A stretch of 64,000 bases of DNA from Polaromonas sp. (lineage in GTDB: Bacteria; Pseudomonadota; Gammaproteobacteria; Burkholderiales; Burkholderiaceae_C), in NCBI GenBank assembly GCA_028292745.1, contig JAQGLT010000124.1, positions 1 through 64,000 on the forward strand, written 5' to 3'. Shown here piece by piece: positions 27,131 to 46,264 of the stretch (positions within the stretch are counted from its first letter, which is position 1; every line of letters starts with the position of its first letter). Made by a program: the position numbers and the translations under genes. The notes beneath the pieces are model-generated. The model saw only the letters and a list, made by a program, of their open reading frames with translations, was not told the origin of the DNA and did no database searches.

Positions 27131-27304
27131 CTTTCAAAGAGCATTTCAGCGCTCAAGCGCACTGCCGCTCAGGATAAAGAAAAGGGCACGAACGATTTGC
27201 CGACTGCCTCTACAATCCGACGCAAAATCCACAGCTGCTTACGATCAAGCGAGCGTGCTGGCTGTTGTACTTTTCGCCGGAAAATCTCACCCACGGAGAC
27301 CGTC

Positions 27305-30300
27305 ATGGACCAGGCCGTTCAGCCCAGGCTGAAAAAGAAAACCCCAAAGCTTTCCGCCACTGCATCCGGCATCACGGCAAAGCCCAAGCGCGGCCCTGCT
27401 TCAAAGCAGCTCGATTCGGTTTCATCGTTGACGGACGAGTTGGCGGAAATCCGTTCGCGCCGCATTTTGGCGGCCATGATTTCTTTCCAGGACGGTGATT
27501 TCACGGTCCGGCTTCCCACGGATTGGCCGGGCACGGACGGCCGGGTGGCCGAGGCCTTCAACCGCACGATCGGCAGTGCTGAACGCATCACCCGCGAGGC
27601 ATTTCGCCTCAGCATGACCGTTGGCAAGGAAGGTCGGCTTGCGCAGCGCATGTCAGTCCCAGGTTCTATCGGTGGCTGGGCGGAACAGGTCGATTCGCTG
27701 AACACCCTGGTTGACGATCTGGTGCGGCCAACCACCGACATCGCACGCACCATTGGTGCGGTCGCAAAAGGTGATCTGGGCCAGTCAATGGACTTGCAAG
27801 TGGACGGACGGGCACTCAAGGGGGAGTTTTTGCGTTCTGCAAAACTCGTCAATACCATGATTGAGCAGCTGTCGGTGTTTACTTCTGAAGTGACACGGGT
27901 GGCGCGCGAGGTCGGAACCGAAGGCAAGCTCGGCGGGCAAGCCAAGGTAAAGGGCGTCTCGGGCGTCTGGAAGGACCTGACCGACTCCGTGAATCAAATG
28001 GCTGGCAATCTGACCGCGCAGGTACGCAATATTGCCGACGTGACTATCGCCGTGGCCAACGGCGACCTGTCGAAAAAAATCACGGTGGACGTCCGGGGGG
28101 AGATTTTGCAACTTAAGGAAGCCACCAACACCATGGTGGACCAGTTGCGATCCTTTGCCTCGGAAGTGACGCGGGTGGCGCGGGAAGTGGGCACCGATGG
28201 GCGGCTGGGCGGGCAGGCCGTGGTACCGGGCGTGGCCGGCACCTGGAAAGACCTGACCGATTCCGTCAACTCAATGGCCAACAACCTCACCTCCCAAGTG
28301 CGCAACATCGCAACGGTGACCACCGCCGTGGCGCGGGGAGACCTGAGCCGCAAGATCACGGTGGACGTGAAGGGAGAGATCCTGGAGCTGAAGGAAACCA
28401 TCAACACGATGGTTGACCAGTTGAACGGCTTTTCGTCCGAGGTCACCCGGGTGGCCCGGGAAGTGGGCACCGAAGGCAAGCTGGGTGGGCAGGCGCAGGT
28501 GCCGGGCATTGCAGGCACCTGGAAAGACTTGACCGATTCGGTCAACTCGATGGCGTCCAACCTCACCGGCCAGGTGCGCAACATTGCCGGCGTTGCCACC
28601 GCGATCGCCAAGGGCGACCTGTCCTCCAAAATCACGGTCGAGGTGAAGGGGGAAATCCTGGCGCTGAAGGAAACCATCAACACGATGGTTGACCAGCTGA
28701 ACGGCTTTGCGTCCGAGGTCACGCGGGTGGCGCGGGAGGTCGGCACCGAAGGCAAGCTGGGTGGTCAGGCACAGGTGCCCGGCGTGGCCGGCACTTGGAA
28801 AGACCTGACGGACAACGTCAATTTCATGGCGTCCAACCTGACCGGGCAGGTCCGCAACATTGCCGAAGTGACGACCGCCGTTGCCAATGGCGACTTGTCC
28901 AAGACCATCACCGTGGACGTGAAGGGGGAAATTTTGGAGCTGAAAAACACCATCAATACGATGGTCGATCAGCTCAATGGCTTTGCCTCGGAGGTGACCC
29001 GTGTGGCGCGGGAGGTGGGCACCGAAGGCAAGCTCGGCGGACAAGCTGCTGTGCCCGGCGTTGCGGGAACCTGGAAAGATTTGACGGACAGCGTCAATTT
29101 CATGGCCTCCAACCTGACCGGGCAGGTACGCAACATCGCCGAAGTGACCACTGCTGTGGCCCGAGGCGATCTTTCTAAAAAGATCACAGCCGATGTCCGG
29201 GGCGAAATCCTGGAATTGAAGAACACCATCAATACCATGGTGGACCAGCTCAACGGATTTGCCGGCGAGGTCAGCCGGGTGGCGCGCGAGGTGGGCACTG
29301 AAGGCGCCTTGGGCGGCCAGGCACAGGTGCTGGGCGTGGCCGGCACCTGGAAAGACCTGACTGACAACGTCAACTCGATGGCCTCTAACCTGACCGCGCA
29401 GGTCCGTAACATCGCCGACGTGGCCACGGCCGTGGCCAATGGCGACCTGTCAAAAAAGATCACGGTGGATGTGAAGGGTGAAATCCTGGAATTGAAGAAC
29501 ACCATCAATACCATGGTGGACCAGCTCAACGGGTTTGCTGGCGAGGTGACGCGGGTGGCGCGCGAGGTGGGCACCGATGGCAAGTTGGGCGGCCAGGCAC
29601 AGGTGCGCGGCGTGGCCGGCACCTGGAAAGACTTGACCGACAACGTCAATTCCATGGCTAACAACCTGACAGGACAGGTGCGCAACATCGCCGACGTGAC
29701 CACGGCAGTGGCCCGGGGCGACCTGTCGCGCAAGATCACGGTGGAAGTCAAGGGTGAGATTCTTGAGCTGAAAAACACCATCAACACGATGGTCGATCAG
29801 CTCAATGGCTTTGCCTCGGAGGTGACGCGGGTGGCGCGCGAGGTGGGCACCGAAGGAAAGCTCGGCGGCCAGGCACAGGTGCCCGGTGTGGCCGGCACCT
29901 GGAAGGACTTGACCGACAACGTGAATTTCATGGCTTCCAACCTGACGGGACAGGTTCGCAATATTGCCGATGTGGCGACGGCGATTGCCAAGGGCGACCT
30001 GTCCTCAAAAATCACGGTTGAGGTCAAGGGCGAAATCCTGCAGCTCAAGCAGACCATGAACACCATGGTCGATCAATTGAATGCCTTTGCCGGGGAGGTC
30101 AGCCGCGTGGCGCGCGAGGTTGGCACCGACGGCAAGCTTGGGGGACAAGCTGCGGTGGAAGGTGTGGCGGGCACCTGGAAGGACTTGACCGACAACGTGA
30201 ACTCGATGGCCGCCAACCTAACGGGCCAGGTGCGCAACATCGCCGAGGTGACCATCGCTGTGGCCAACGGCGACCTGTCCAAGAAGATCACGGTGGATGT

Positions 30301-33300
30301 GCGGGGCGAAATTCTGGAATTAAAGGAAACCATCAACACCATGGTGGACCAGCTGCGCTCGTTCGCGGCCGAGGTGAGCCGGGTGGCGCGCGAGGTGGGG
30401 ACCGACGGCAAGCTCGGCGGACAGGCGCAGGTGCCTGGCGTGGCCGGGACCTGGAAGGACTTGACCGACAACGTCAATTCCATGGCAAACAACCTGACGG
30501 GCCAGGTGCGCAACATCGCCGACGTGGCCACCGCCATCGCGCGTGGCGACCTCGGCCGCAAGATCACCGTGGACGTGAAGGGCGAAATCCTTCAGCTCAA
30601 GGAGACCATGAATACCATGGTGGACCAGCTGTCGGCATTTGCCTCGGAAGTGACGCGGGTAGCGCGCGAGGTCGGCACCGAAGGCAAGCTCGGTGGCCAG
30701 GCAGCGGTTCCCGGTGTGGCCGGCACATGGAAGGATCTGACCGACAACGTCAACTCGATGGCCTCCAACCTGACCGGCCAGGTGCGCAACATCGCCGAGG
30801 TGACCATCGCCGTGGCCAATGGCGACCTGTCCAAAAAGATCACAGTGGACGTGCGTGGAGAAATCCTGCAGCTCAAGGAGACCATTAACACCATGGTCGA
30901 GCAGCTGCGTTCGTTCGCGTCCGAAGTCACGCGTGTCGCCCGCGAGGTCGGCACCGAGGGCCGGCTGGGCGTGCAGGCCGTCGTGCCTGGCGTGGCTGGC
31001 ACCTGGAAAGACTTGACCGACTCGGTCAACACCATGGGCGCCAACCTGACATCGCAAGTCCGCAACATTGCCGAGGTGACGACGGCCGTCGCGCGTGGCG
31101 ACTTGAACCGCAAGATCACGGTGGACGTCAAGGGTGAAATCCTGGAACTGAAGGACACCATCAATACCATGGTGGACCAGCTCAATTCCTTTGCCGGCGA
31201 AGTGACGCGGGTGGCCCGCGAGGTGGGCACCGAAGGCAAGCTTGGCGGTCAGGCGCAGGTCAGCGGCGTGGGCGGCACCTGGAAGGACCTGACCGACAAC
31301 GTGAACTTCATGGCCTCCAACCTGACCGAGCAGGTGCGCGGCATTGTGAAGGTTGTCACAGCCGTGGCCGGTGGCAACCTGACGCAGCGCCTGACGGTTC
31401 AGGCGAAGGGCGAGGTCGCCGCGCTGGCCGACACTATCAACGGCATGACGGACACCTTGGCAACCTTTGCCGATCAGGTGACGAACGTCGCGCGGGAAGT
31501 GGGTGTTGACGGGCGGCTGGGCGGGCAGGCCAACGTGCCAGGCGCGTCGGGCACCTGGAAGGATCTGACCGGCAACGTCAATTTGCTGGCGGCCAACCTC
31601 ACGACGCAGGTCCGGGCGATTGCCGAGGTGGCTACCGCGGTGACCAAGGGAGACTTGACCCGCTCGATTCAAGTCGATGCGAAAGGCGAGGTGTCCGAGC
31701 TCAAGGACAACATCAATACGATGATCTCGAACCTGCGCGAAACCACTGAAAGCAACCGCGAACAGGACTGGCTCAAATCCAATCTGGCACGCTTTACCGG
31801 CATGCTACAGGGCCAGCGGGAATTGAGCACTGTCGGGAAAACGCTGCTGTCGGAACTCGCGCCATTGGTCAGTGCGCATCAAGGAACGATCTATCACTTC
31901 AACAGTGCCGAAGAAGACAACAACGAGCTGAGTTTGCTGTCAAGCTACGCCCAGACCGGAAGCGTTCGCTTGGCCCCTACCGTGGGCCTTGGCGAGGGTT
32001 TGGTCGGCCAGTGCGCCGTGGAAAAAAAACGTATTTTGCTGACCAACGCACCGCCCGACTTTGTCACCATCGAGTCCAGCCTTGGAAAGGCCCGCCATGT
32101 CAGCGTGGTGGTGCTGCCAGTGTTGTTCGAAAATGAGACCAAGGCCGTGATCGAACTGGCTTCCCTGCATCCGTTTTCGGTTGTCAACCTCAACTTCCTC
32201 GATCAACTTGCCCTTGGCATTGGCGCCGTGTTCAACACCATCGAGGCCACGATGCGCACCGAGGGACTTCTTACGCAGTCGCAGCAACTTACCGTGGAAC
32301 TGCAGTCCCGGCAAAGCGAATTGCAACAGACGAACGAGGAGCTGGGCACCAAGGCACGCTTGCTTGCCGAACAAAACGCCGAGGTCGAGCGCAAGAATAC
32401 CGAAGTTGAACAGGCACGCGGGGCCTTGGAAGAAAAAGCGTCCGAACTCGCCCTCACATCGAAGTACAAGTCAGAATTTTTGGCGAACATGTCACACGAG
32501 CTGCGCACGCCGCTCAATTCAATTCTTATCCTGAGCCAGCAACTTGCAGAAAATGCGCCAGGCAACCTGTCCCCGAAACAGGTCGAGTTTTCGCGCAACA
32601 TCAACTCCTCCGGCTCGGACCTGCTGCACCTGATCAACGACATTCTGGACCTTTCGAAGATCGAGTCGGGCACGGTCACGGTGGAGGTCGAGGACATTAC
32701 TTTCAGCGGGCTACGCGAGAATATCGATCGCAATTTCCGCCACGTCGCTGAAGCCAAGGACCTGCCTTTTCACATTCGCTTCGCTACTGACCTGCCGCGT
32801 TCGATGGACAGCGATCCCAAACGGCTGCAGCAGATTCTCAAGAATCTTCTTTCCAACGCCGTCAAATTTACCTCGCGAGGCCAAGTCGAGGTTCGGGTCG
32901 GGCTGGCCACCAAAGGCTGGAGCCCGGAGCACCCGGTGCTTCGCCAGGCCCAGCAGGTAATTGCTTTCGCGGTTGAAGACACCGGCATTGGCGTTGCCCC
33001 TGAAAAGCAGCGCCTGATTTTCGAGGCGTTCCAGCAGGCCGACGCGGGCACGTCCCGCAAATACGGTGGCACAGGACTGGGCCTGGCCATCAGCCGGGAA
33101 CTTGCTTCGCTGCTGGGCGGCGAGATAAGGCTGACCAGTGTGCATGGCAAGGGCAGCGTCTTCACGTTGTACCTTCCGTTGCACTACATCGGCCCGCAAG
33201 GGGTTGCCCTGACACGAAGCACTGAGGTCGCCACTGTCGAGTCTGCACGTTCTGTCATCGCGTTGCCTGTTTCGCGTGAAGAGCACATCGCGGATGACCG

Positions 33301-34492
33301 AGACAGCATTTCCGCCGGCGACTTGATCCTTCTTGTGATCGAAGACGATCCGCACTATGCGCGCATCCTGCTCGGCTTGGCGCGGGACAAAGGATTCAAA
33401 GGCATCGTGGCAACCAAGGGGGCGCACGGGCTTGTTTTAGCTCGCCAGTACCGTCCGGCCGCAATTTCACTCGACATCTTTCTGCCGGACATGCTGGGCT
33501 GGACGGTGCTGAACCAGTTAAAGCTTGACCCTGACACCCGTCACATTCCGGTGCAGATCGTTACGCTGGAGGAGGAGCGTCATCACGGACTGGCCCATGG
33601 TGCCTTTGCCTATTTGATCAAAGAACCTACCACCGTCGGGCTGGAAGCAGCCTTCGACCGGATGAAGGCTTTTACCGCGCCCCGTACCAAGCGACTGTTG
33701 ATCGTGGAAGATAACGACATTGAGCGTGCTGCCATTGTGGAACTGCTGGGCTTTGAGGACATTGAGATGGTGGCAGTGAGCAACGGCCAAGAAGCACTGG
33801 CAGCGATGCGCGAGCAAGGCTTTGATTGCGTTGTGCTTGATCTCCGGCTGCCAGACATGACAGGCTTTGAACTGCTAGAAAAAGTACAGGCAGAGCCCGC
33901 TCTGGCGACTGTGCCGGTGGTGGTTTTCACAGGCAAGGATCTGAGCCGGGACGAGCAAGCAAAACTCCATTCGATGGCCAAAAGCATCGTGCTGAAAGAT
34001 GTCCAGTCGCCCGAGCGGTTGCTCGACGAGACAGCCCTATTCCTGCACCGGGTTGTCACAGCGCTGCCGGTGCAAAAACAAGCCATGCTCCAACGGCTGC
34101 ACAATTCGGCCGAGGTCTTGCGCGGACGCAAGGTGCTGGTGGTCGACGATGACGCACGCAATATTTTCGCGTTGACGTCCGTGCTTGAGAACCATGAAGT
34201 CGATGTGATCAGCGCCACCAATGGCCGGCACGCCATTGACATCATCGAGAGCACTCCTGAACTGTCCATGGTCTTGATGGATATCATGATGCCCGAGATG
34301 GATGGCTATGAAACAATGCGCGAAATTCGCCAAAGGCCGCAGTTCCGCACGCTGCCTATTCTGGCGCTGACCGCAAAGGCCATGAAAGGCGACCGGGAAA
34401 AATGCCTGGACGCTGGCGCCAGCGACTATATTGCCAAACCCGTGAATACCGATCAGTTGCTGTCGCTGATGCGGGTCTGGCTGTTCCGATAA
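27305..34492 (+). CDS. giant poly-HAMP hybrid histidine kinase (GAF-HisKA-HATPase-REC-REC-REC)
   Basis: A 2395-residue soluble hybrid kinase. ATG 27305 ([17 protein letters not shown]) follows CGGAGA. Residues 48-190 form divergent HAMP-like units. Residues 192-1479 are 14 tandem 92-residue repeats (core [49 protein letters not shown]), each a HAMP pair. A GAF domain (about 1520-1660) and a coiled coil follow. HisKA has [15 protein letters not shown] (His1731). The ATPase has [20 protein letters not shown] and GGTGLGLAI. Three receivers begin at about 2006, 2130 and 2276, all with acceptor Asp. No membrane segment is seen. The design resembles fungal group III (Nik1) osmosensing kinases and their bacterial relatives; the signal here is unknown. 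Confidence 0.95.
27878..31741 (+). repeat. 14 tandem 276-bp coding repeats
   Basis: Fourteen units start every 276 bp exactly (first Phe codon at 27878, last unit at 31466). Each encodes 92 residues beginning F[12 protein letters not shown]. Units 2-12 are nearly identical in protein and highly similar in DNA; units 1, 13 and 14 are more divergent. Spacing is perfect, with no indels. Confidence 0.97.
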
Positions 34493-36588: not shown

Positions 36589-36611
36589 TGGTGCGGCTGG
36601 CGGGGATCGAA
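36589..36611 (-). repeat. attachment-site copy (distal end of the island)
   Basis: Twenty-three bases identical to the CCA-to-T-loop end of the tRNA-Arg gene at 46189-46211; identity stops sharply after GATCGAA. It marks the end of the island opposite the intact tRNA. Confidence 0.88.
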
Positions 36612-37028
36612 TTCGTGAAGCAGCGCATCATATGCGACACCCAGAGCAGGGTTTTTCCAGATAGATCCATGCAAATACAAGTTACCGGCAGTAGTCAAGC
36701 GTTGGACATTTAGGCGTGCAGCCTGACTGGCCCAGAGTAAATTGGAATGGGTTGTACGCACCACTTACCAGAGCAGTACCAGCAGGCTGCAGGCTATCCG
36801 CACTTCCAGCTTAGCTGTCAGTTGAATGTTGTTTCAGTAAGGTGATGGTGTACATCATGGATAGGGGTATAGAACTACAAAGTTACACCGCCAAGAAACA
36901 CAACCGACCTTGCCCTGATATTAGGGCTAAGTTGAGTAGAAACAGCCTTAACTAAATTTAGGAAAAAAATATCATTACTTAGAGCCTGATGTCCTGCTCA
37001 GCTCAGCCTTACACAAAGTGCTGATGAT
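36612..37028. other. non-coding left end of the island
   Basis: About 417 bp without a credible gene. It contains one copy of the roughly 100-bp island repeat (36793-36892). The DNA between the attachment site and that repeat shows no recognisable gene. The base composition turns AT-rich towards 36900-37028. Confidence 0.5.
36793..36892 (+). repeat. island repeat, left copy (about 100 bp)
   Basis: GCTATCCGCACTTCCAGCTT to AAAGTTACACCGCC aligns along its length with 44307-44407 at roughly four bases in five. Both copies contain ATGGTGTACATCATG and GGGGTATA, and both lie inside the island. Confidence 0.8.
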
Positions 37029-38234
37029 TTACGAATCGATCAGACCACGGATGCGGTTCTTGTAGTCGGCTATAGCGCTCGCGCTTTTTGCGATTGCGGC
37101 CGCGTTGTTAATCACCGGAGTTCCCGTTGGATCTTCGTTGTATTCAACTAAGGGATTTGAGAAATTCAAAATTCGTATTCCCTGGTAAGACATCAAAGTA
37201 CCGCGAACGATGCCTTCCTTTGAGTGCTTCCATTGATATCCCCAATGCACTCCTTTATTGTCGACATTTAGCCCAAGACAGTCAGCATTTTCTATATTGT
37301 GCGGACAACCGAAGTTGTGACCTATCTCGTGACTAAGAGAGTGCCGATTTTTCGCTTGTTCCCAGCTTACAACACTGAATGCCGAATTTGGATTGCCTGT
37401 GGGTTTACGCAGGCAATTGGCAATACTGCGGCCCGGGAGCTTTCGGAAAAGAGTGACTAAGTCAGCGCTATTCTTAAGTCTTATCTCTTGCGTCCAATTA
37501 CTATTTCGCAATTGATCAAGCGCTGTCGCGTAAGCATCTGACATCCCATCAAAGTCGTGATGTATAGCAGCTACTAAATTAACAGCTACCTTTACGCCAG
37601 TGCCCTCAAGACTTGCTTCCAAAGCAGCATTTAAATTTGCAACTAAACCATTGATTGTTCCATCAACTTCAAGAACATTGCTCTGATTCAAGACGTTTGA
37701 GTTATATACCGCGAGCAGATTTACGGTATAGTTTCCGCCAATTGGTATATCACTGTCCTTATCAGCAAAGTTCTCGATCAAGCTATCCTCGTTGGCTTCG
37801 AAATCTTCTTGACAGTCCATCGGCGCCGCCAAGTTCAATTCCTTAACAACTGAGAGGTATTCATTGTAAGGAAATAACGTGAACTCGCTCACGCCGGTAA
37901 ATACCATCAAGGTAGTGACGCTTGCGCCATCACGTTGAGTTAAAGTCATAACGACTCTGCTGTCTTTGTTACTATTAACTTTACCCACGAACGAAATCGT
38001 TTCTTTATCTCTACGTTTTATTTCTACAGAACACTCGAGCTTTACGTCATCAAAAAAATTTGCCAAAAATCGAATAGGCTCAATCCTACCTTTTACCGAA
38101 TGTCGATTTGCTTCAAATAGTAGAGCCGGATTCAAATACACAAGCCTCTGCCTCGGTACAAACTCATCTGACTCTAACTCGTCAGCAATATCTTGAGAAA
38201 CTTCTTCATCGAGTAATAAATTTTTAAGCGCCAT
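37029..38234 (-). CDS. metzincin-type zinc metalloprotease
   Basis: A 401-residue protein with an intact metzincin zinc site HEIGHNFGCPH (HExxHxxGxxH, about residue 305) and a downstream Met-turn GTLMSYQG. The fold is near the reprolysin/peptidyl-Asp metalloendopeptidase group; the subfamily is uncertain. About 160 residues of N-terminal domain precede the catalytic part. The N-terminus (MALKNLLLDEEVSQDIADEL) is acidic and is not a signal peptide, which is unusual because most metzincins are secreted. ATG 38234 follows a strong AGGAG. AT-rich codon use separates it from the host genome. It is the last gene of the island cargo, 219 bp after the 301-residue gene. Confidence 0.8.
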   Translation of the reverse strand: MALKNLLLDEEVSQDIADELESDEFVPRQRLVYLNPALLFEANRHSVKGRIEPIRFLANFFDDVKLECSVEIKRRDKETISFVGKVNSNKDSRVVMTLTQRDGASVTTLMVFTGVSEFTLFPYNEYLSVVKELNLAAPMDCQEDFEANEDSLIENFADKDSDIPIGGNYTVNLLAVYNSNVLNQSNVLEVDGTINGLVANLNAALEASLEGTGVKVAVNLVAAIHHDFDGMSDAYATALDQLRNSNWTQEIRLKNSADLVTLFRKLPGRSIANCLRKPTGNPNSAFSVVSWEQAKNRHSLSHEIGHNFGCPHNIENADCLGLNVDNKGVHWGYQWKHSKEGIVRGTLMSYQGIRILNFSNPLVEYNEDPTGTPVINNAAAIAKSASAIADYKNRIRGLIDS

Positions 38235-38332
38235 ATTATTCTCCTACAGTAGGATGCACTAAGGACTATATTTTGATTAACACAATTATCAACTACTCAT
38301 TCTTATATTAATCCGTTCAATTTTTTATCAAA

Positions 38333-38361
38333 CTTCTAATTATTAGAATTGATGCGGTCAA
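38333..38361 (-). promoter_or_regulatory. candidate promoter with palindrome before the metalloprotease gene
   Basis: On the minus strand TTGACC (38361-38356), a 17-bp spacer and TAGAAG (38338-38333) form a possible promoter. A perfect 15-bp dyad, TTCTAATTATTAGAA (38334-38348), covers the spacer and the -10 region, where a repressor could act. It is about 100 bp upstream of the start codon. Confidence 0.35.
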
Positions 38362-38453
38362 ACCAAGTTCCTTGGCTACTATAATATAAAAAATATTTTT
38401 TGTATTCGACTTCAATCATACAATCTCGAAATGGAGAACCAGGCTACATTACA

Positions 38454-39359
38454 TTAATCAATAGTCATATTTGAAAGCACGTATTCTGCCGCTTTACCTG
38501 CCATTACGCCAGCAACAACTGGTGCAACTCCACAAGCTAGAAACGCTACTCCGCCAGTGCTAACTCCAAACACCAAACATGCGGCTGCAATTGCTCCAGT
38601 AGCAGTAGCTTCAGACATTTTTATGAGAGCTGTATTACGCTCTTTGTCTGTTTTAGCTATGTCAAGCTCATAGTATCTATACGGAATCTCAATCGCTACC
38701 GCGATGGTACTAGTTACCGAAATAGCTTTAGCAAGAGGCAACGTCACAGCTGCTAATTTTCCAAACTTATTTGCAAGTTTATTAGTCGAAACGGCTTTTG
38801 ATATTACTTCTTCAGCTCTACCCTCTTTTAATAATGCATCGGTCTTCTGAATAATTACTTTTTCATAGTTGGCTGTACTGCCATAGCGAGGAATATCAAA
38901 GAGTACTTTTGCTGAAAATCCTGAAACAGGATGACGTGCGCGTATTGCTTTACGCATTGACATTCGTGCATCCCTGATACTTTTCGCAATTTGTTCATCA
39001 ATTTTTCCACCTGCGGCAAGCCAATTTTCTCTAATTATAGAAATAGAGTCAGTATATGAACGCCGCGCTGCTTCTAAATCACGTACAGCTTCAAATGCGA
39101 TTGGAACCACTCTCTTCTGAGTGACTAGTGCTCGATCAATAATTATATTATCTAGAACAAACTCTATATCTTGTTTCGACCCTGCCGGGATCCAACACGC
39201 TTCACCTTCGTCACTATCCATCGGCAGAATGAAAGCCTCATTTACTCCTTGTTTATTAAAAACTGACGGATAATACAAGGCACGTTCGGTGTTGCCTGCA
39301 AAGTTAGTAATTGCACCAGTTCTAGCACCAAAGGTAGCATTTTTATCAGCGCCTGACAT
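38454..39359 (-). CDS. island protein of unknown function with hydrophobic C-terminus
   Basis: A 301-residue protein that I do not recognise. Residues 1-205 are soluble and mixed, with a basic stretch (SIRDARMSMRKAIRARHP). From about 205 there are hydrophobic segments: KLAAVTLPLAKAISVTSTIA, then a Gly/Ala-rich hairpin, ATGAIAAACLVFGVSTGGV and FLACGVAPVVAGVMAGK. Glycine-rich hydrophobic hairpins of this kind occur in pore-forming toxin domains and in membrane-inserting effectors, but also in holin-like proteins; this is inference. It starts six bases after the stop of the 991-residue gene and so is part of the same transcript. Confidence 0.75.
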   Translation of the reverse strand: MSGADKNATFGARTGAITNFAGNTERALYYPSVFNKQGVNEAFILPMDSDEGEACWIPAGSKQDIEFVLDNIIIDRALVTQKRVVPIAFEAVRDLEAARRSYTDSISIIRENWLAAGGKIDEQIAKSIRDARMSMRKAIRARHPVSGFSAKVLFDIPRYGSTANYEKVIIQKTDALLKEGRAEEVISKAVSTNKLANKFGKLAAVTLPLAKAISVTSTIAVAIEIPYRYYELDIAKTDKERNTALIKMSEATATGAIAAACLVFGVSTGGVAFLACGVAPVVAGVMAGKAAEYVLSNMTID

Positions 39360-39365
39360 ATTTTG

Positions 39366-42341
39366 TTATGCACTAGGTTTTTTATATGATAATGTAAGTC
39401 TAAGCCCTTCATGCCTAACACTCACATTTGTTTGATACCATTCATGAGATTTATTTCCCAAATCCCATGGATCTTCAGCATAAATACGAGGTAGCTTAAA
39501 CTCTAAAATTCCTAATGTAGGCGATGAATTTTGGAGGTAATGAATTTCATTTTTTATTATTACAGACCAACCTTCGGATGAAAGTAAATCAAAAGAAAGC
39601 CTTAACTTCAAATATACATGATTATCAGGCTCGTATAACACTGTGCGGTCTGTCACGTATAATTTCGACTTGTCAATTATTTGATCGAGCATAATCAAAT
39701 TTTTCGCAGAACGAGAATTTATATGATCAGCCTTTGCAATAACAAGCCGTTGATCTGCTTGCTTACCCTTCTCTTCCAACGCACGCATTCTTTCCGAATA
39801 CTCTTCAGTGGCGGGTCTTAGGCCCACCTGCGCATCAGCATGAAGACCCCCTGAATCGAATGAAAAGGTTGTTTCCGTAAATGCCTTATTTATAAATCCT
39901 TCAAATTTACAATTCTCGGTTTGAAAGGTAGATGCAAGAATTTTAAGTAGGATTGCCTCGTCGAATTCTAACAAACCTTCCTTGAATGCTTTCTCTACAA
40001 TTGCAGGAGGGAGATACACTGGTAATGCTTGAGCAGGCTCATTGAGAAGCGCTTTCACTGCCAAATTTATACTAGAAGAATCTAACCCTTCAATATTGTT
40101 AAACAAATTTTGTTGTATATCACTTAGCTGTCTGGTAGCATTTTCATTAGTTGACGAATCGTTGTATTCTTTTTCTAAGTTAACTGCTAGTGCCTTACAT
40201 AGAGCTATTTTAAATTCGACTGATTTATCGCTTATGTCTATCGGCATTATTCCCGGCTGCATCAAATAATCCCACATCTTGTCCAACCTAGTCCGTGAGA
40301 AAGTTCTGCCCTCTTTAATGCCTGTACCCATTACAATTTCTTGTCCAGCCTCTATATAAAAATCGAAATCACGCAAATATAAATTGGAACGATAGTTATT
40401 CATCAATCTATAAAATGTGATATTTAATGTTCTTCCTTCATTGATATTTTTGAGCTTATAAGATGTGCTTGTGTTAGTTGATGTTTCGCTTTCTTCAGTA
40501 ACCGATATTGAATTTTCGTCTTTTGAGCGTCTGTTCAGTTCTTGTGAAGCTCGTTGAACAGATCGATTTAATTGACGGCTCATATCTTTAGTAGTTGTTG
40601 AGGCCGAAAAGTTTGCACTTCCTGAAAAACCTGCATACGATCCACCTACACTCCCACCGCTTGATGACGTTGATTCTTTTTCTCTTCTAACTTCTTTTTC
40701 AAATACTGTTTCAAAATCGGACTTATCTACTCGCGTTATTTCTGAAAGTGAGCTTGTAGTTACACTGCGAGTAGTTTTATAGCGTTGAGAAACAGCCACA
40801 GTTACAGTTCGTTCCTCCCCTGGTGCTAGTGGAATAGTTGCTGCGAGTTCTCCTAGGGCCACCCCCTCCCATGCAAACATGTAAGTTAGTTGTTCGTCTA
40901 TGCTAATCGATGGAAAAATTGATGGAGATATTTCAGACAGCGGTCGAACTAAAAGAACATACCCTACAGCAATTCGCTCACCAACTATAGTATTTTCATA
41001 GAAAGGTATACCAATTACGCAATTTAGTCGAAATTCTTCGTCATTTTTACATTGGCGCATTACCTCTTCAATAGAAGATCCATCTGCGGTAACTAAGCCC
41101 TGTGTGGTTTCACGAAACAAATAAACACTATAGTTGTCTTTTCTATATGCTTCTGCCGCTTCAGTCCAGGGATCATAATCAATCTGCGCCCGTTCATAGT
41201 AGGTAAAAGATTTACGATTTTCTATAGGAACTTGATAGGAGACTGTTCTTTTGCGAAACCATGATCTTTGAGTTTCAGTAACGGTCTGATAAGTGATCCA
41301 GGAGACTGTACGTTGACCTTCTTTGAATAATTTTCCTGCAGGAAGTGGTTCATCTTTTTCTGTTCCATCAGCGTTTACATATTTAACATTAGTCGGCTCT
41401 AAAAATAATTTATAACCTATGTCTGATGCTGCGTCTGCTAGTTGTTGACGTATTGATTCAACTCGTGGTAAATAGCTATTTAGTTCTCTATACTGGAAAG
41501 TGAGAGTAGGTAGCGTTGAGATTGATGCCGTTGGAATAGTGTCAGATAATAATTTACTAGCTCGTTCAGCCAAAGTTAAAGCGAGCTTTCGATCATTTTC
41601 TAATGATTTGTATTGCTGATCAATTAAAGCAGCATCGGCACGAACCACATCAACTGCAGAAAACCCCCTACGCGCTATACCTTTAATTTTGTTAGTCACT
41701 TCCTCGCGAGTTGGGTTTACGCTTGCCTCTCCTGGATCTTCTGCAAAAAATACGTGAACAAGTTCAGCAATATTATCCCAAACGGTTTTCCAATTAATGA
41801 AATCAAAATCGTTTTTTGCCGCTGGGCGCGGTGCGTTTAAATCATCTTGAATTAGAGGTTGATACCAACGGAACATACCGTTTGCTAACGGTACTTTAAT
41901 TACGCACCCTGTTATTAGTTTTACTTCCTCTTTTGCATATGGCGCAAGCCGGTAAACTGATGGTGGTGCGTCAAAAATATAAAACTTATTATCGACTTTT
42001 TCACCAGCCGTTGTGGTATATACAGAACTCGGCAAGTGTATATAAGCAGGCCAGAGTTCCGATACTTCCTTAACATGCAAGTCTATGAGTTCTTGGGATA
42101 TAGGGTTCTCTGGCGTGATGCCCCACATGTTTTCAAAATAAACCCTAAACGCTCTTCTGCGTCGAATTTCTATTTCTTTATCTGTAATTCCGATCGATGC
42201 TAGAAGCTCAGGCCAAAACGTTGGACTATGAGTAATTTGTCGTTTTCTCCCAAAAGAATAAGCATTTGGAGCAAACTGTAGTTTATGAGGACCTTGAATT
42301 GTTAATGCCTCATCTAATGGTATATGTTTATTTTCTTGCAT
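39366..42341 (-). CDS. 991-residue island protein of unknown function
   Basis: I do not recognise the family. No signal peptide or membrane segment is evident. Features: basic N-terminus (FGRKRQITHSPTFWPELLAS), an acidic-helical region to about 300, paired TVSWITYQTVTETQ and SWFRKRTVSYQVP strands, a segment LAPGEERTVTVAVSQRYKTT (about 500), a long Ser/Thr/Gly-rich stretch around residues 525-620 (STSSSGGSVGGSYAGFSGSA), then LKNINEGRTLNITFYRLMNN and a C-terminal helical and beta region. A Ser/Gly-rich strand bounded by charged segments is reminiscent of beta-pore-forming or fibre-like proteins, but this is only an impression. AT-rich codons. It lies between the small membrane protein and the 301-residue gene. 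Confidence 0.8.
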   Translation of the reverse strand: MQENKHIPLDEALTIQGPHKLQFAPNAYSFGRKRQITHSPTFWPELLASIGITDKEIEIRRRRAFRVYFENMWGITPENPISQELIDLHVKEVSELWPAYIHLPSSVYTTTAGEKVDNKFYIFDAPPSVYRLAPYAKEEVKLITGCVIKVPLANGMFRWYQPLIQDDLNAPRPAAKNDFDFINWKTVWDNIAELVHVFFAEDPGEASVNPTREEVTNKIKGIARRGFSAVDVVRADAALIDQQYKSLENDRKLALTLAERASKLLSDTIPTASISTLPTLTFQYRELNSYLPRVESIRQQLADAASDIGYKLFLEPTNVKYVNADGTEKDEPLPAGKLFKEGQRTVSWITYQTVTETQRSWFRKRTVSYQVPIENRKSFTYYERAQIDYDPWTEAAEAYRKDNYSVYLFRETTQGLVTADGSSIEEVMRQCKNDEEFRLNCVIGIPFYENTIVGERIAVGYVLLVRPLSEISPSIFPSISIDEQLTYMFAWEGVALGELAATIPLAPGEERTVTVAVSQRYKTTRSVTTSSLSEITRVDKSDFETVFEKEVRREKESTSSSGGSVGGSYAGFSGSANFSASTTTKDMSRQLNRSVQRASQELNRRSKDENSISVTEESETSTNTSTSYKLKNINEGRTLNITFYRLMNNYRSNLYLRDFDFYIEAGQEIVMGTGIKEGRTFSRTRLDKMWDYLMQPGIMPIDISDKSVEFKIALCKALAVNLEKEYNDSSTNENATRQLSDIQQNLFNNIEGLDSSSINLAVKALLNEPAQALPVYLPPAIVEKAFKEGLLEFDEAILLKILASTFQTENCKFEGFINKAFTETTFSFDSGGLHADAQVGLRPATEEYSERMRALEEKGKQADQRLVIAKADHINSRSAKNLIMLDQIIDKSKLYVTDRTVLYEPDNHVYLKLRLSFDLLSSEGWSVIIKNEIHYLQNSSPTLGILEFKLPRIYAEDPWDLGNKSHEWYQTNVSVRHEGLRLTLSYKKPSA

Positions 42342-42432
42342 ATTTGCTTTTGGTTTCTTTAATTTACTAATAAAATAGGCTTTTCATTAGCACAAATGAA
42401 ATGAGCTTATTGAAACTTTTAAACTTATTAAA

Positions 42433-42774
42433 TTATCGTCCGACTGGTGATGGCGCTAACAACCCCGCCAATGCACCGATGGCCGCAGATCCAAGAGCGG
42501 TCAAAATATCAGGCACAGCAAATGTTCCACTAGTCGAAAATTTCAATATGATTACACCTATGACCACTATAAGCACAGTAAGGCTTAATGCTCCAACTAC
42601 AATTCTATAAATTATTTTGTCGCTTTCTAAAGCACGTGGAGGCATTGCGCTTAATGTTTGTGCTTGGAGACGTTTAAGTGTTGCGACAGGATCGGCTTTT
42701 AACTCATCTATTATTTCAGGACTAGCCAAAGCCGTCTTTACCATTAAATCAACAGAACGCAATTTTTCAGTCAT
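42433..42774 (-). CDS. small two-helix membrane protein, first gene of the island cargo
   Basis: A 113-residue protein from ATG 42774, which has a good GGAG ribosome binding site. Residues 1-45 are a soluble amphipathic segment (VDLMVKTALASPEIIDELKA, then DPVATLKRL), followed by a membrane helix (about 57-80, VVGALSLTVLIVVIGVIILK) and a second weakly hydrophobic segment (about 90-108, ALGSAAIGALAGLLAPSP). The N-terminal A-x-x-SPEIIDELKADPVATL pattern recalls leader regions of the NHLP/Nif11 type, but no modifying enzyme is nearby. Unknown function; 91 bp upstream of the 991-residue gene. Confidence 0.7.
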   Translation of the reverse strand: MTEKLRSVDLMVKTALASPEIIDELKADPVATLKRLQAQTLSAMPPRALESDKIIYRIVVGALSLTVLIVVIGVIILKFSTSGTFAVPDILTALGSAAIGALAGLLAPSPVGR

Positions 42775-43324
42775 ATTTAAGCTCCTATGAATTTTTATTA
42801 ATTACTTCCACTATTTTGTTATTTATTGTTAATAAAAATCATTGTGTGCTTAGTGTATTTTTTTGCAATACTTCAAATAAGGTATTATTATCGAAGAGCT
42901 TAAAATAAGCTGAGAGTGACGTAATTAGCTGCTTACATTGATAAAAATCACATTTGCCGATTAACGGATGAGTAAGTTCGGATATGTATTAAATGTAAAT
43001 AAGTACGTAAAGTTTTTATTTTCTTGCTATGCCTGATTCGTTTATTTATTTAACAACATTATTGTGAGTTTTCAGAGCAACAAATCACTGGGTCTTCTAT
43101 GCTCACAGCATTTAAAAATGCGCACACTAATTACTTTGTTAACGCTTAGCTTTCACGGTAGCGCTTGATGTGCGGTGTATTTGAAGGGATGGGGTATAGA
43201 ACTGGAAAGTTACACCGCCACCTTGCCCTTCACCTTCTTGAAACACGCTAGATTTGGCTGGGTGACATGAAGCGCTACATTGCATATCATCCTGAGCGGT
43301 AGTCCCAAACGCTGGACTATCAAC
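42775..43324. promoter_or_regulatory. AT-rich region between the cargo and the integrase
   Basis: About 550 bp without a credible gene. It should hold the promoter of the leftward cargo operon. At 43187-43219 it contains the short form of the island repeat. The composition changes from AT-rich to GC-rich near 43140-43200, marking the edge of the cargo. Confidence 0.5.
43187..43219 (+). repeat. island repeat, short middle copy
   Basis: GGATGGGGTATAGAACTGGA then AAGTTACACCGCC matches the last 33 bases of the copy at 36793-36892 almost perfectly and those at 44307-44407 more loosely. It lies just upstream of the integrase pseudogene. Confidence 0.75.
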
Positions 43325-44330
43325 ATGCCTCACTGCACCCCACCCAAAATTCGCAAGACCCCGTTTGCGACAGTTATCGATTTCACCAATGCCAGTCTGA
43401 AGGAAGCTTGTCAGCAGGTCCAATCTCATGGGCTTAAACAAGTCCGGTTTTATTCCAAAGGCGTTAAAGGTCTTCACGCCGAGGTGTACCCCACCCGCGC
43501 GACCTTTTATGCCACCTATAGCGTGCCCCGTCGGCTGGGCATTCAGGCCAGACGCGGCGGGCGCATTGCTGTAGGCGTTTTCGGACTGCATACCATTGCC
43601 CAGGCGCGTGCGGAATTCATGGAAGTACGCCGCAAGGCCTTTGCAGGCATTGACCCTAAGGCTGCCGTGCCACGCGAGCTGACCTATGCCGAGTTTCATG
43701 TCGAGCACTACCGGGTGCAATGCATCAGCCGGCAAAAGAAAATCCTTCAAACTGACCTCGGACGCTATGGAAAATGGATCGAACTCGAGTTGGGCCGGTA
43801 TTTGCTGCCGCAGATGAATGCCACTGGCATCAACAGCTGGTGGTCAAAATGCAGGACGCTGGCTTGGCAGCTGCCACCATCCGCAACGTCATTGGCCAGT
43901 TATCGAGCAGCTTGAACCTGGCGGTTGAACTGGGATTGATTGACAAGAACCCGGCAAGTACGTCAAACTGCCACGTGTCTTCAACCAACGCACCCAGACC
44001 TTTACCGTCAGTCAGATCACTGCCTTTGTGACGGCCGCGAGCAAGCGTCCGGAAACCGTTGCATCCAGGCTGTTGACGTTGCTCGCTTTCACTGGCACCT
44101 GACTGGGAGAAGCCACGAACGCCAAATGGCAGGACATTGACCTGGAAAAGGGCCAGTAGCGGCTGCCGACTCAGAAGTCTGGCAAGCCGGGCGTGATCTT
44201 TCTGTCAGATATGGCGAAATCCGTCATACGCGAAGTACTGCCCTTCAAGCGCAACGATTTCGTATTCCCGGGCAACAAGGGCAATGACCGGCTGTCTCGG
44301 CCGCACGCTATTCGTACTTCCACCTTAGCC
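43325..44330 (+). pseudogene. tyrosine-recombinase integrase of the island, inactivated
   Basis: The reading frame starts at ATG 43325 (MPHCTPPKIRKTPFATVIDF) with an arm-binding domain, then an SAM-like core-binding domain (GLAAATIRNVIGQLSSSLNL, GLIDKNPA). A frameshift lies near 43830 and a second near 43960. In the catalytic domain, LLTLLAFTGT is followed by TGA (44100-44102) at the position of the catalytic Arg in TGTR-LGEA, a simple CGA to TGA change. A second in-frame stop TAG lies at 44157-44159. The coding match ends at about 44310, before the H-x-x-R...Tyr motifs, where the island repeat begins. Such an integrase cannot act. Confidence 0.9.
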
Positions 44331-44407
44331 GTCAGTCTGGATGCTGTTCCAGCAAGGTAATGGTGTACATCATGAATGGGGGTATAAATAAGCAAAATTA
44401 CACCGCT
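44307..44407 (+). repeat. island repeat, right copy (about 101 bp)
   Basis: GCTATTCGTACTTCCACCTT to CAAAATTACACCGCT aligns with 36793-36892. It overlaps the point where the integrase coding match stops, so it may be a recombination scar or a binding site of the integrase. Confidence 0.8.
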
Positions 44408-44454
44408 ATCCCAGCCGGACAGTGAAGTGCCTGTAGAAAAAAATACTGGTGATG

Positions 44455-44672
44455 TCACGGCGTGTAGGCATCGCCATACGCGCCTTTTAGCGCATTTCAA
44501 GCCAGTTGCCTGTCATTTTCATATGGTCAATGGCCGGCACAATGGCGCTTTACTGCTTGATCATAGCCTTCATGGTCCCTGTCATGCCCTGACGCCGGCC
44601 TAAGCGCAGAATCTGCACCCCCCTGGACCTTCGCGCCCCGATAACCCTTGTAGCCGCTGTGAACACTACGTT
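44455..44672 (-). pseudogene. IS5-type transposase remnant (C-terminal part)
   Basis: On the minus strand, separate frames spell SGYKGYRGAKV, then RRQGMTGTMKAMIKQ, stop, SAIVPAIDHMKMTGNWLE, and in another frame LKGAYGDAYTP. In order they match the C-terminal end of IS5-family (IS1182/ISL-like) transposases, where a GYKG loop is followed by a basic stretch, RRSAIEPVIGHLK and LKGALGDA. Two frame changes and an internal stop show that it is dead. No inverted-repeat ends are visible. Confidence 0.7.
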
Positions 44673-44679
44673 TTTGCGT

Positions 44680-44925
44680 CTTTCGCTTCAACAACAGACA
44701 GCGCAGTTCAAAAAAATTCTTGAAACTGCCGCGCACGGAACGCTGAAGATAAATACGCCTGATTTGCTTAAGATTGAGTTCTCCCTCCCGCCCATGGAGA
44801 CGCAGCGTGCTATCGTCGCCGAGATCGACGCCGAACAAGTACTGGTCGCATCCAACAGCGAACTGATCCGCCGCATGCAGGCCAAGGTTAAGGCCGCGAT
44901 TGACCGGGTGTGGGGCGCGGCATGA
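44680..44925 (+). pseudogene. hsdS: 3' fragment of a type I restriction gene (HsdS-like)
   Basis: Only the last 80 codons or so remain: HGTLKINTPDLLKIEFSLPP, METQRAIVAEIDAEQ, SNSELIRRMQAKVKAAIDRV, WGAA. This is the conserved end of HsdS specificity proteins or HsdM-S fusions (target-recognition edge plus central coiled coil). The 5' part is lost at the transposase remnant. The stop overlaps the start of the Abi gene (ATGA), as in intact type I operons that carry an abi gene between hsdS and hsdR. Confidence 0.75.
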
Positions 44926-45914
44926 GTTACGTGAAGCCCTGGACCAGCCATGCCGCGCAATTGGAGCAACTTGAGGCGCGTGGTTTGCAGGTTTCCGACC
45001 GTGGCCGGGCGCTGGAATACCTCAGGCGCATCGGCTATTACCGGCTGAGCGGCTACTGGTTTGCGTTTCGCGAACGCTCCGGAGTGTGTTGCCTGCTGGA
45101 AGCGTTTGCCTCCGCCAAAGCCAAGCCTAGAGAACAGACGCTGGTGTTGGAAACCTTCAAGCTCACGGCAACTTTTCAAAACGCGGTGGACCTGTATGTG
45201 TTTGACAAGCAATTGCGCCTTTTGGTGCTGGATGCGCTGGAACGGATCGAGGTGGCGCTGCGCGTCGATATTTCGCACACGCTGGGCCAGCTTGATCCGT
45301 TTGCCTATTTGAAGGCAAGTTGGTTCCACGATGAGTTCAGCCAGACGCTGGATAAGCAAAGCGGCCTGACCCGGCACCATGAATGGCTCAGCAAGCACGC
45401 GCAGCTGATTGGACGGTCGAAGGAGGAATTCGTTACCCACAACAAAACCAAGTACGGCTTGCCGCTTGCGATCTGGGTGGCCTGTGAAGTCTGGGACTTT
45501 GGCACGATGTCCACCTTGTACGGTGGGATGCGCGAGCTAGAGCAAGATGCAATTGCCGCCAAGTACGGCCTGCGTAACGGCCGGGTATTTGCCACCTGGC
45601 TGCGAAGCCTTAACTATCTGCGCAATGTGTGCGCCCACCACAGCCGTTTATGGAATCGTAACATTGTGGATCAGCCCAAGCTGCCAACTGCGGCTGAGAT
45701 GCCTTGGGTTGTTCCGTTTGAGCAAAATGCCCATGCGCGGGCACGCTGCTATTTGTTGCTGTGCATGGTGCGGCATTTGTTGCAAGTCATCAACCCAACT
45801 TCCTCTTTGCCCCAGCGTATGCGAACTCACCTGAAAACCTTTCCAGACTTGAATCACCTGGGACTAAATCTGGTGGGTATGGGGGTCGGTGCGAATTGGG
45901 ATACGCAGTGGTGA
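44922..45914 (+). CDS. Abi_2 (AbiD/AbiF-like) HEPN abortive-infection protein
   Basis: A 330-residue protein of the Abi_2 family, associated with abortive phage infection. ATG 44922 (MSYVKPWTSHAAQLEQLEAR) overlaps the hsdS fragment stop. Family marks: RALEYLRRIGYYRLSGYW at the start, FDKQLRLLVLDALERIEVAL, and the HEPN RNase-like motif RNVCAHHSRLWNR (R-x4-H). The HEPN residues are intact, so RNA cleavage is possible. It was probably an accessory gene of a type I restriction-modification operon whose other genes are gone. It is the last gene before the tRNA end of the island. Confidence 0.9.
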   Translation: MSYVKPWTSHAAQLEQLEARGLQVSDRGRALEYLRRIGYYRLSGYWFAFRERSGVCCLLEAFASAKAKPREQTLVLETFKLTATFQNAVDLYVFDKQLRLLVLDALERIEVALRVDISHTLGQLDPFAYLKASWFHDEFSQTLDKQSGLTRHHEWLSKHAQLIGRSKEEFVTHNKTKYGLPLAIWVACEVWDFGTMSTLYGGMRELEQDAIAAKYGLRNGRVFATWLRSLNYLRNVCAHHSRLWNRNIVDQPKLPTAAEMPWVVPFEQNAHARARCYLLLCMVRHLLQVINPTSSLPQRMRTHLKTFPDLNHLGLNLVGMGVGANWDTQW

Positions 45915-46188: not shown

Positions 46189-46264
46189 TGGTGCGGCTGG
46201 CGGGGATCGAACCCACGACCCTTGGCTTCGGAGGCCAATACTCTATCCACTGAGCTACAGCCGC
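46189..46264 (-). tRNA. tRNA-Arg (anticodon CCG)
   Basis: On the minus strand the 76-nt gene starts GCGGCTGTAGCTCAGTGGAT and ends GGGTTCGATCCCCGCCAGCC GCACCA. The 7-bp acceptor stem is GCGGCTG/CAGCCGC, the anticodon stem TTGGC/GCCAA and the loop CTCCGAA with anticodon CCG; the T-loop is TTCGATC and CCA is encoded. Its last 23 bases serve as attachment site of the adjacent island and are duplicated at 36589-36611. It is the only tRNA in the window. Confidence 0.95.

Follow-up and report, generated by a model that had tools for sequence, protein, structure and literature searches.

A possible split antibacterial toxin, with a carrier of an unrecognized family, on a tRNA-Arg island of Polaromonas sp.

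Genes on a genomic island of Polaromonas sp., inserted at a tRNA-Arg gene, may encode a split antibacterial toxin of the polymorphic type with a carrier of an unrecognized family, a reading in which toxicity is deduced and to which we give slightly less than an even chance. The presumed carrier, a protein of 991 residues, contains a core that is conserved in bacteria and an archaeon. Its gene is followed almost immediately by a second gene, which changes from one full-length relative to the next, and in some relatives domains that cut peptidoglycan are fused to the core. As some relatives carry cell-wall-cutting enzymes instead, the system could represent an undescribed kind of microbial weapon, and there is a real chance that the carrier itself is something new.

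The window, i.e. the whole stretch of 64,000 nucleotides that was analyzed, contains four consecutive genes on the minus strand. In the direction of transcription, they encode a 113-residue membrane protein (42433–42774), the 991-residue protein (39366–42341), a 301-residue protein (38454–39359) and a 401-residue protease (37029–38234). All four open reading frames are intact and start with ATG, with 91, 6 and 219 bp between consecutive genes. As a block, they have a GC content of 39.5%; the part of the window that lies beyond the island has 62.4%. The sequence-only reading had described one low-GC block of four leftward genes with mostly unrecognized products, and both points hold: no gap exceeds 219 bp, and the best match of the 113-, 301- and 991-residue proteins in Pfam, NCBIfam, PHROGs or PADLOC has an E-value of 0.042. 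Its small membrane protein and its hydrophobic hairpin are also borne out by hydropathy. The 113-residue product, whose gene adjoins the 991-residue gene on the upstream side, has two hydrophobic segments (residues 58–76 and about 85–108), consistent with two transmembrane helices, and matches no family in the family libraries, the sole comparison for this protein. The 301-residue product has two segments (residues 205–223 and 256–274), forming a C-terminal, Ala/Gly-rich hairpin.

To find relatives of the 991-residue protein, a genome collection was scanned with patterns from a two-sequence alignment, which yielded two confirmed relatives among 355 pattern matches. Both are full-length, one from a Rhodobacteraceae MAG (L011, 39%) and one from a Saprospiraceae MAG (L012, 37%). 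A plasmid of Aureibacter encodes a third full-length relative, which gave E 7e-48 when compared directly. With more distant relatives, the shared region amounts to about 200 residues that surround the motifs L-A-P-G-E and N-x-N-...-L-N/T; profile search places this core at 40314–40904 on the minus strand of the window, where the second motif ends in L-N. Searching an 18-protein set with a profile of the four full-length proteins (group A) recovered all 14 others, none with an E-value above 8.1e-7; among 918 decoys, made by shuffling or reversing sequences, the best E-value was 0.044. In the same decoy test, a reversed sequence scored E 3e-4 and 9e-4 with the profiles of groups D and E, respectively. 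Some links between the outer groups are non-significant (0.46 from group B to L026; 2.1 from group E to L022) and, thus, rest on group A. With three further members, found at E 1.3e-47 or better using an 18-row profile, the core totals 21 proteins from 20 loci. One of these loci (L009, 80–7757) encodes two core proteins in tandem with overlapping ends. The sources include Pseudomonadota (the Rhodobacteraceae MAG, Polaromonas, Caballeronia, Psychrobacter and Ruegeria), Bacteroidota (Aureibacter and the Saprospiraceae MAG), Cyanobacteriota (Aulosira and Nostoc), Streptomyces and the archaeon Haladaptatus.

The core does not correspond to any convincing Pfam domain in the 19 of 21 proteins scanned (all except that of Aureibacter and L009a), the nearest being a CEP15-like match in L024 (E 0.041), and NCBIfam returned nothing in the core for the seven proteins scanned. 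PADLOC, and PHROGs for the core, were applied to the window's own protein, which has no Pfam, NCBIfam or PHROGs domain; 0.042 is its best E-value overall, PADLOC included. No description of the core or of the two-gene arrangement was found in the open literature searched. The family is nameless in the resources used and, thus, may have been described under another name.

In all four full-length members, including the window's own copy, a co-directional gene begins 6, 5, 1 or 13 bp downstream and encodes a protein of 301, 354, 332 or 302 residues, respectively. BLAST detects no relation between the window's 301-residue protein and the other three partners (E 3.5, 1.8 and 0.052), indicating that the second gene changes. 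In 12 shuffle comparisons among the second genes, uncorrected for their number, the partners of L012 and Aureibacter may resemble each other (3/1000 over their full length); the 301- and 332-residue proteins gave 7/1000 over the first 70 residues and 201/1000 over the full length; and the remaining comparisons gave 76/1000 or more. A C-terminal, Ala/Gly-rich hydrophobic stretch is present in the partners of the window and Aureibacter and, less strongly, in that of L012, where one segment exceeds the threshold. Possibly owing to its composition, the hydrophobic region of the L012 partner also hits the phage family "tail fiber protein/lysozyme" (E 4.4e-5). The L011 partner has no hydrophobic segment and resembles DUF6402 (E 7.6e-5, under the curated cut-off). 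DUF6402 was rejected as the mark of a known toxin, being found in one of 150 genomes with uninformative neighbors; we found no mention of it in the open literature, and the DUF6402-like protein of L011 has no relative in plasmids. The 301-residue protein itself has no relatives in 60 other genomes of the genus or in plasmids (E≤0.1), and no match to solved structures (E≤5). Its gene starts 6 bp past the preceding stop codon without an evident ribosome site, as would suit coupled translation, an argument weakened by the 991-residue start, which also has no evident ribosome site. Across all core proteins, nine of 21 have a co-directional next gene (at least 90 residues) within 100 bp. The other 12 include L009b, which is followed by the overlapping core gene L009a, as well as L009a and L017, for which the available sequence ends 79 and 731 bp away, respectively.

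Four of these 12 members have an effector-like C-terminus. In the Caballeronia protein (L025), the tail has no match in Pfam or NCBIfam but resembles a lytic transglycosylase of known structure (PDB 9udh, E 8.2e-41), and it also matches a baseplate-hub family of phages (E 6.4e-39). The tail of the Nostoc protein (L023) is endolysin-like (PHROGs E 9.4e-5; Pfam GH19 at E 0.15 is below the cut-off). A motif, HEVTH-x(10)-H, is fused to the core in L032, whose tail has no family or PDB match. The fourth is a plasmid-borne protein of Haladaptatus (L021, 5434–9507) that ends in DUF2272 (E 1.1e-15; 58.4 bits versus a cut-off of 27). To our knowledge, archaea of this group have no peptidoglycan. The protein is possibly a weapon with which an archaeon attacks the walls of bacteria. 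Archaea are known to produce peptidoglycan hydrolases with bactericidal activity (PMC12352652); the main text of that paper mentions neither DUF2272 nor Haladaptatus. Elsewhere in the family, L007, L008 and L022 seem by eye to contain papain-like or nuclease-like motifs (Pfam and PHROGs being blank), and no effector was recognized in five (both proteins of L009, L017, L018 and L033).

In the split toxin proposed here, whose toxicity, target and delivery we infer along with membrane insertion, immunity and the role of the protease, the 991-residue protein would serve as the constant carrier and the 301-residue protein as the changing effector, the two being made together. The C-terminal hairpin of the latter would most likely insert into the inner membrane of the target cell and depolarize it. 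The 113-residue protein would protect the producer; it is read as a putative immunity protein because multipass membrane proteins are described as conferring immunity to CdzC/D and Tse4, which are glycine-zipper toxins (PMC10434224). The metzincin could be a second effector or could process the carrier. Exit from the producer and crossing of the target envelope would occur through cell lysis or by another route. Several points count against this reading: the hairpin could be an ordinary membrane anchor, more than half of the core proteins (12/21) have no tight next gene and five have no recognized effector, and a position upstream is unusual for an immunity gene. The sequence-only reading had proposed an effector or toxin module comprising all four genes. 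A toxin is still the best-supported reading, its support being the fused peptidoglycan-cutting domains or differing second genes of the relatives, but a unit of four genes is not supported. The set was not found elsewhere in the collections searched, and only the 991-residue gene and its immediate, non-homologous next gene recur.

Several known systems offer partial parallels. Polymorphic toxins combine a constant part with changing effectors, such as peptidases, a pore former and other enzymes; the toxin gene is usually followed by an immunity gene, and the immunity proteins are mostly cytoplasmic, two families described there having two transmembrane helices (Zhang et al. 2012, PMC3482391). 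Similarly, the core is joined to lytic transglycosylase, DUF2272 or endolysin-like tails or to a changing second gene, whose product in the window is a putative toxin, and a small neighboring gene could confer immunity, with two transmembrane segments as in those two families. Unlike in polymorphic toxins, the core lies outside all models searched, the effector is in a separate downstream gene in nine of the 21 cases, no trafficking domain is recognized, and the candidate immunity gene is upstream rather than downstream. The 301-residue protein shares with the glycine-zipper pore formers TelE and Tse4 a C-terminal hydrophobic segment rich in small residues, a likeness judged by hydropathy, and the two-segment 113-residue protein is comparable to the multipass immunity proteins of CdzC/D and Tse4. 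The immunity protein of TelE is of another kind, with 151 residues, and is not described there as multipass (PMC10434224). In addition, no LXG/T7SS or T6SS link was seen here, in contrast to these pore formers. The TANFOR toxins of Bacteroidetes are likewise large and pair a constant domain with toxic termini (PMC7073777). A search of NCBIfam, which presumably holds a model for them, gave no TANFOR match for the window's 991-residue protein at E≤1.

The genes are located within a tRNA-integrated genomic island, as evident from a repeated tRNA end, low GC content, an integrase fragment and the presence of the repeat pair in congeners. The island is bordered by a perfect 23-bp direct repeat with a spacing of 9600 bp: attL (36589–36611, plus strand), a copy of the 3′ end of tRNA-Arg, and attR (46189–46211), which is part of the target gene tRNA-Arg(CCG) (46189–46264, minus strand, identified by ARAGORN). 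Thus, the tRNA island named in the sequence-only reading stands. Its overall GC content is 44.2% (62.4% in the window outside it). We compared the surroundings of tRNA-Arg in four congeners, two of which were chosen because they already showed a second match to the repeat. Each of these two has a pair of the repeats, spaced by 7.2 and 2.45 kb, respectively, that flanks a different insert (L046, 1935–9203; L047, 1758–4230), indicating that this site took inserts more than once. The other two have a single copy within the 4.6–5.1 kb examined. The left flank of the island is not syntenic in the congeners compared, and an exact empty site was not found among them. A 47-nt repeat occurs three times on the plus strand at the edges of the island's modules: R1 at the left edge of the cargo block (36847–36893; 81% identity to R2 and R3), R2 at its right edge (43174–43220) and R3 after the integrase fragment (44362–44408). 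The ends of these repeats are partly inverted (GGTGTA...TACACC), and they may be exchange points of the cargo.

The right part of the island contains the N-terminal part of a tyrosine integrase (43280–43915, plus strand; Arm-DNA-bind_3, Pfam E 6.9e-9), which is apparently broken downstream, as its reading frame extends no further, a fragment of a type I S-subunit (HsdS), and an AbiD-type gene (PADLOC E 5.6e-59), whose start is overlapped by the S-subunit fragment (44659–45914). Islands in tRNA genes are usual homes of defense genes, and these neighbors favor an intracellular anti-phage role of the abortive-infection kind, in which the 991-residue protein would detect infection and, with the protease serving to activate the system, turn the hairpin protein against the membrane of its own cell. 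The defense module suggested earlier would fit with the AbiD-type gene and the HsdS fragment sharing the island. However, none of the four genes has a PADLOC match to known anti-phage systems at E≤1, whereas the AbiD-type gene does. Moreover, some relatives, one of them archaeal, carry peptidoglycan-cutting domains, which would have little obvious use inside the cell unless exported. We consider an anti-phage role unlikely.

The core is found in about 1% or less of the sampled species, in several cases on plasmids and in one on an island. The 991-residue protein matched two of 398 genomes in a phylum sample and four of 399 in a family sample (own genome included); a four-row profile matched two of 296 and two of 240 genomes around those of L012 and L011, respectively (center genome included); and the core profile matched four of 299 (own or center genome included). 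Among 72,556 plasmid records, the 991-residue protein had one match. For other core proteins, nine (L008) and 29 (L018) plasmid records were matched, many of them partially, and one core protein matched none; the records examined were one of the nine and seven of the 29 (including one of 16 from S. clavuligerus), with a Nonomuraea record of 47% identity outside this selection. The 991-residue protein had no match among 50,697 phage records, and searches of viral contigs confirmed no relative, whether the query was this protein, its two-row alignment, a core alignment built from other members, or the protease. A phage origin was, thus, rejected. The sporadic distribution bears on a structural role, in which the core protein would form a structure of the cell surface, the spore or the envelope, and the enzymes attached to it would remodel the wall of the producer itself. 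Such a role would fit the OmpA, Tectonin and HHH domains of some members or a neighbor gene: OmpA is just below the cut-off in L026 and above it in the upstream neighbor of L025, Tectonin is at the cut-off in L024, and HHH occurs as well. However, rarity, carriage on plasmids and an island, differing second genes and DUF2272 in an archaeal member argue against it, and we regard it as improbable.

Structural comparisons yielded no fold for the presumed carrier. The best matches to solved structures have E-values of 0.19 for the 991-residue alignment (tropomyosin) and 0.56 for the 18-sequence core. An AlphaFold model of the 991-residue protein, based on three sequences (with a start for L011 that is probably placed too far upstream), has a mean pLDDT of 41.8, with block values of 44–77 over about residues 241–360 and 61–83 over residues 891–990 (69 for the last block). 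Foldseek found no match to this low-confidence model at E≤0.001; matches to anthrax PA and a cytolysin (E 0.6–1) were discarded accordingly. In the model, the Ser/Gly-rich segment lies between helices, which would suit a secreted or lysis-released toxin against eukaryotes, such as grazing protists or insects, with the 991-residue protein as a translocation carrier like that of binary toxins and the hairpin protein or the protease as the active part. The combination of a protease with a membrane-active protein resembles host-directed sets. However, the clearest effector domains among the relatives attack peptidoglycan, a bacterial target, and no known translocation pore was matched at a meaningful E-value. 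This explanation is likewise improbable.

Within the antibacterial toxin, the protease would be a second effector or a processing enzyme. It is assigned to the metzincin (M12B-like) peptidases from its zinc motif, HEIGHNFGCPH (HExxHxxGxxH), and from scores above the Pfam cut-offs for Reprolysin_5 (E 3.8e-7; 31 versus 27 bits) and Reprolysin_3 (26.2 versus 22.4 bits), in agreement with the first assignment. It has no hydrophobic segment, no signal peptide evident by eye and no match to solved structures at E≤0.1. Its catalytic segment aligns to the model of Mep72-type metzincins (36 bits), but over residues 170–374 only and far under the model cut-off of 645. No convincing metzincin was seen beside other core genes in the open reading frames of the stretches examined. 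A 255-residue match in L024 faces a gene annotated on the complementary strand and is unlikely to be a real gene, and a HELGH protein 4 kb upstream of the L012 core gene looks unrelated. This absence, together with a four-gene set found nowhere else searched, would be expected if the genes were unrelated cargo inserted together with no joint function, a very unlikely explanation given that the 6-bp spacing of the 991-residue gene and the next gene repeats the order of all four full-length members.

How an antibacterial carrier of about 110 kDa without an evident export signal would deliver its partner is a question raised by these results. No trafficking domain or export signal was seen on the window's protein by domain libraries or N-terminal hydropathy, its N-terminus being non-hydrophobic (0.02; the start chosen for L018 is hydrophobic, 1.67). 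The VgrG-type spike (Phage_base_V, PF04717) was not found in the Polaromonas genome (88% complete) or in three other core-bearing genomes (G785, G786 and G912), and is present in the other five of the nine tested. Cargo of a T6SS or eCIS was rejected on the basis of these four genomes. A bolder proposal, which we regard as doubtful, is that the core defines an undescribed family of toxin carriers of bacteria and archaea that, without a known secretion machine, would deliver separate effectors (membrane inserters, peptidoglycan cutters and proteases) across the envelopes of other cells, as a self-delivering two-part weapon with interchangeable warheads. If the split-toxin reading is right, large unannotated proteins spread over several phyla of bacteria and one or more halophilic archaea would become recognizable as weapon carriers, and new antibacterial effectors, peptidoglycan cutters among them, would be on offer in their C-termini or in the genes that follow.

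A few further features were observed. A 197-residue protein with several hydrophobic segments is encoded shortly upstream of the Saprospiraceae core gene (L012, 5246–5839) and recalls the 113-residue protein of the window. The two congener inserts at tRNA-Arg (L046 and L047) each hold a protein of 586–587 residues with a similar beginning, as judged by eye. Near the island, the window encodes a 2431-residue hybrid histidine kinase (27197–34492) with a very long series of near-identical repeats, many of which appear HAMP-like by eye.
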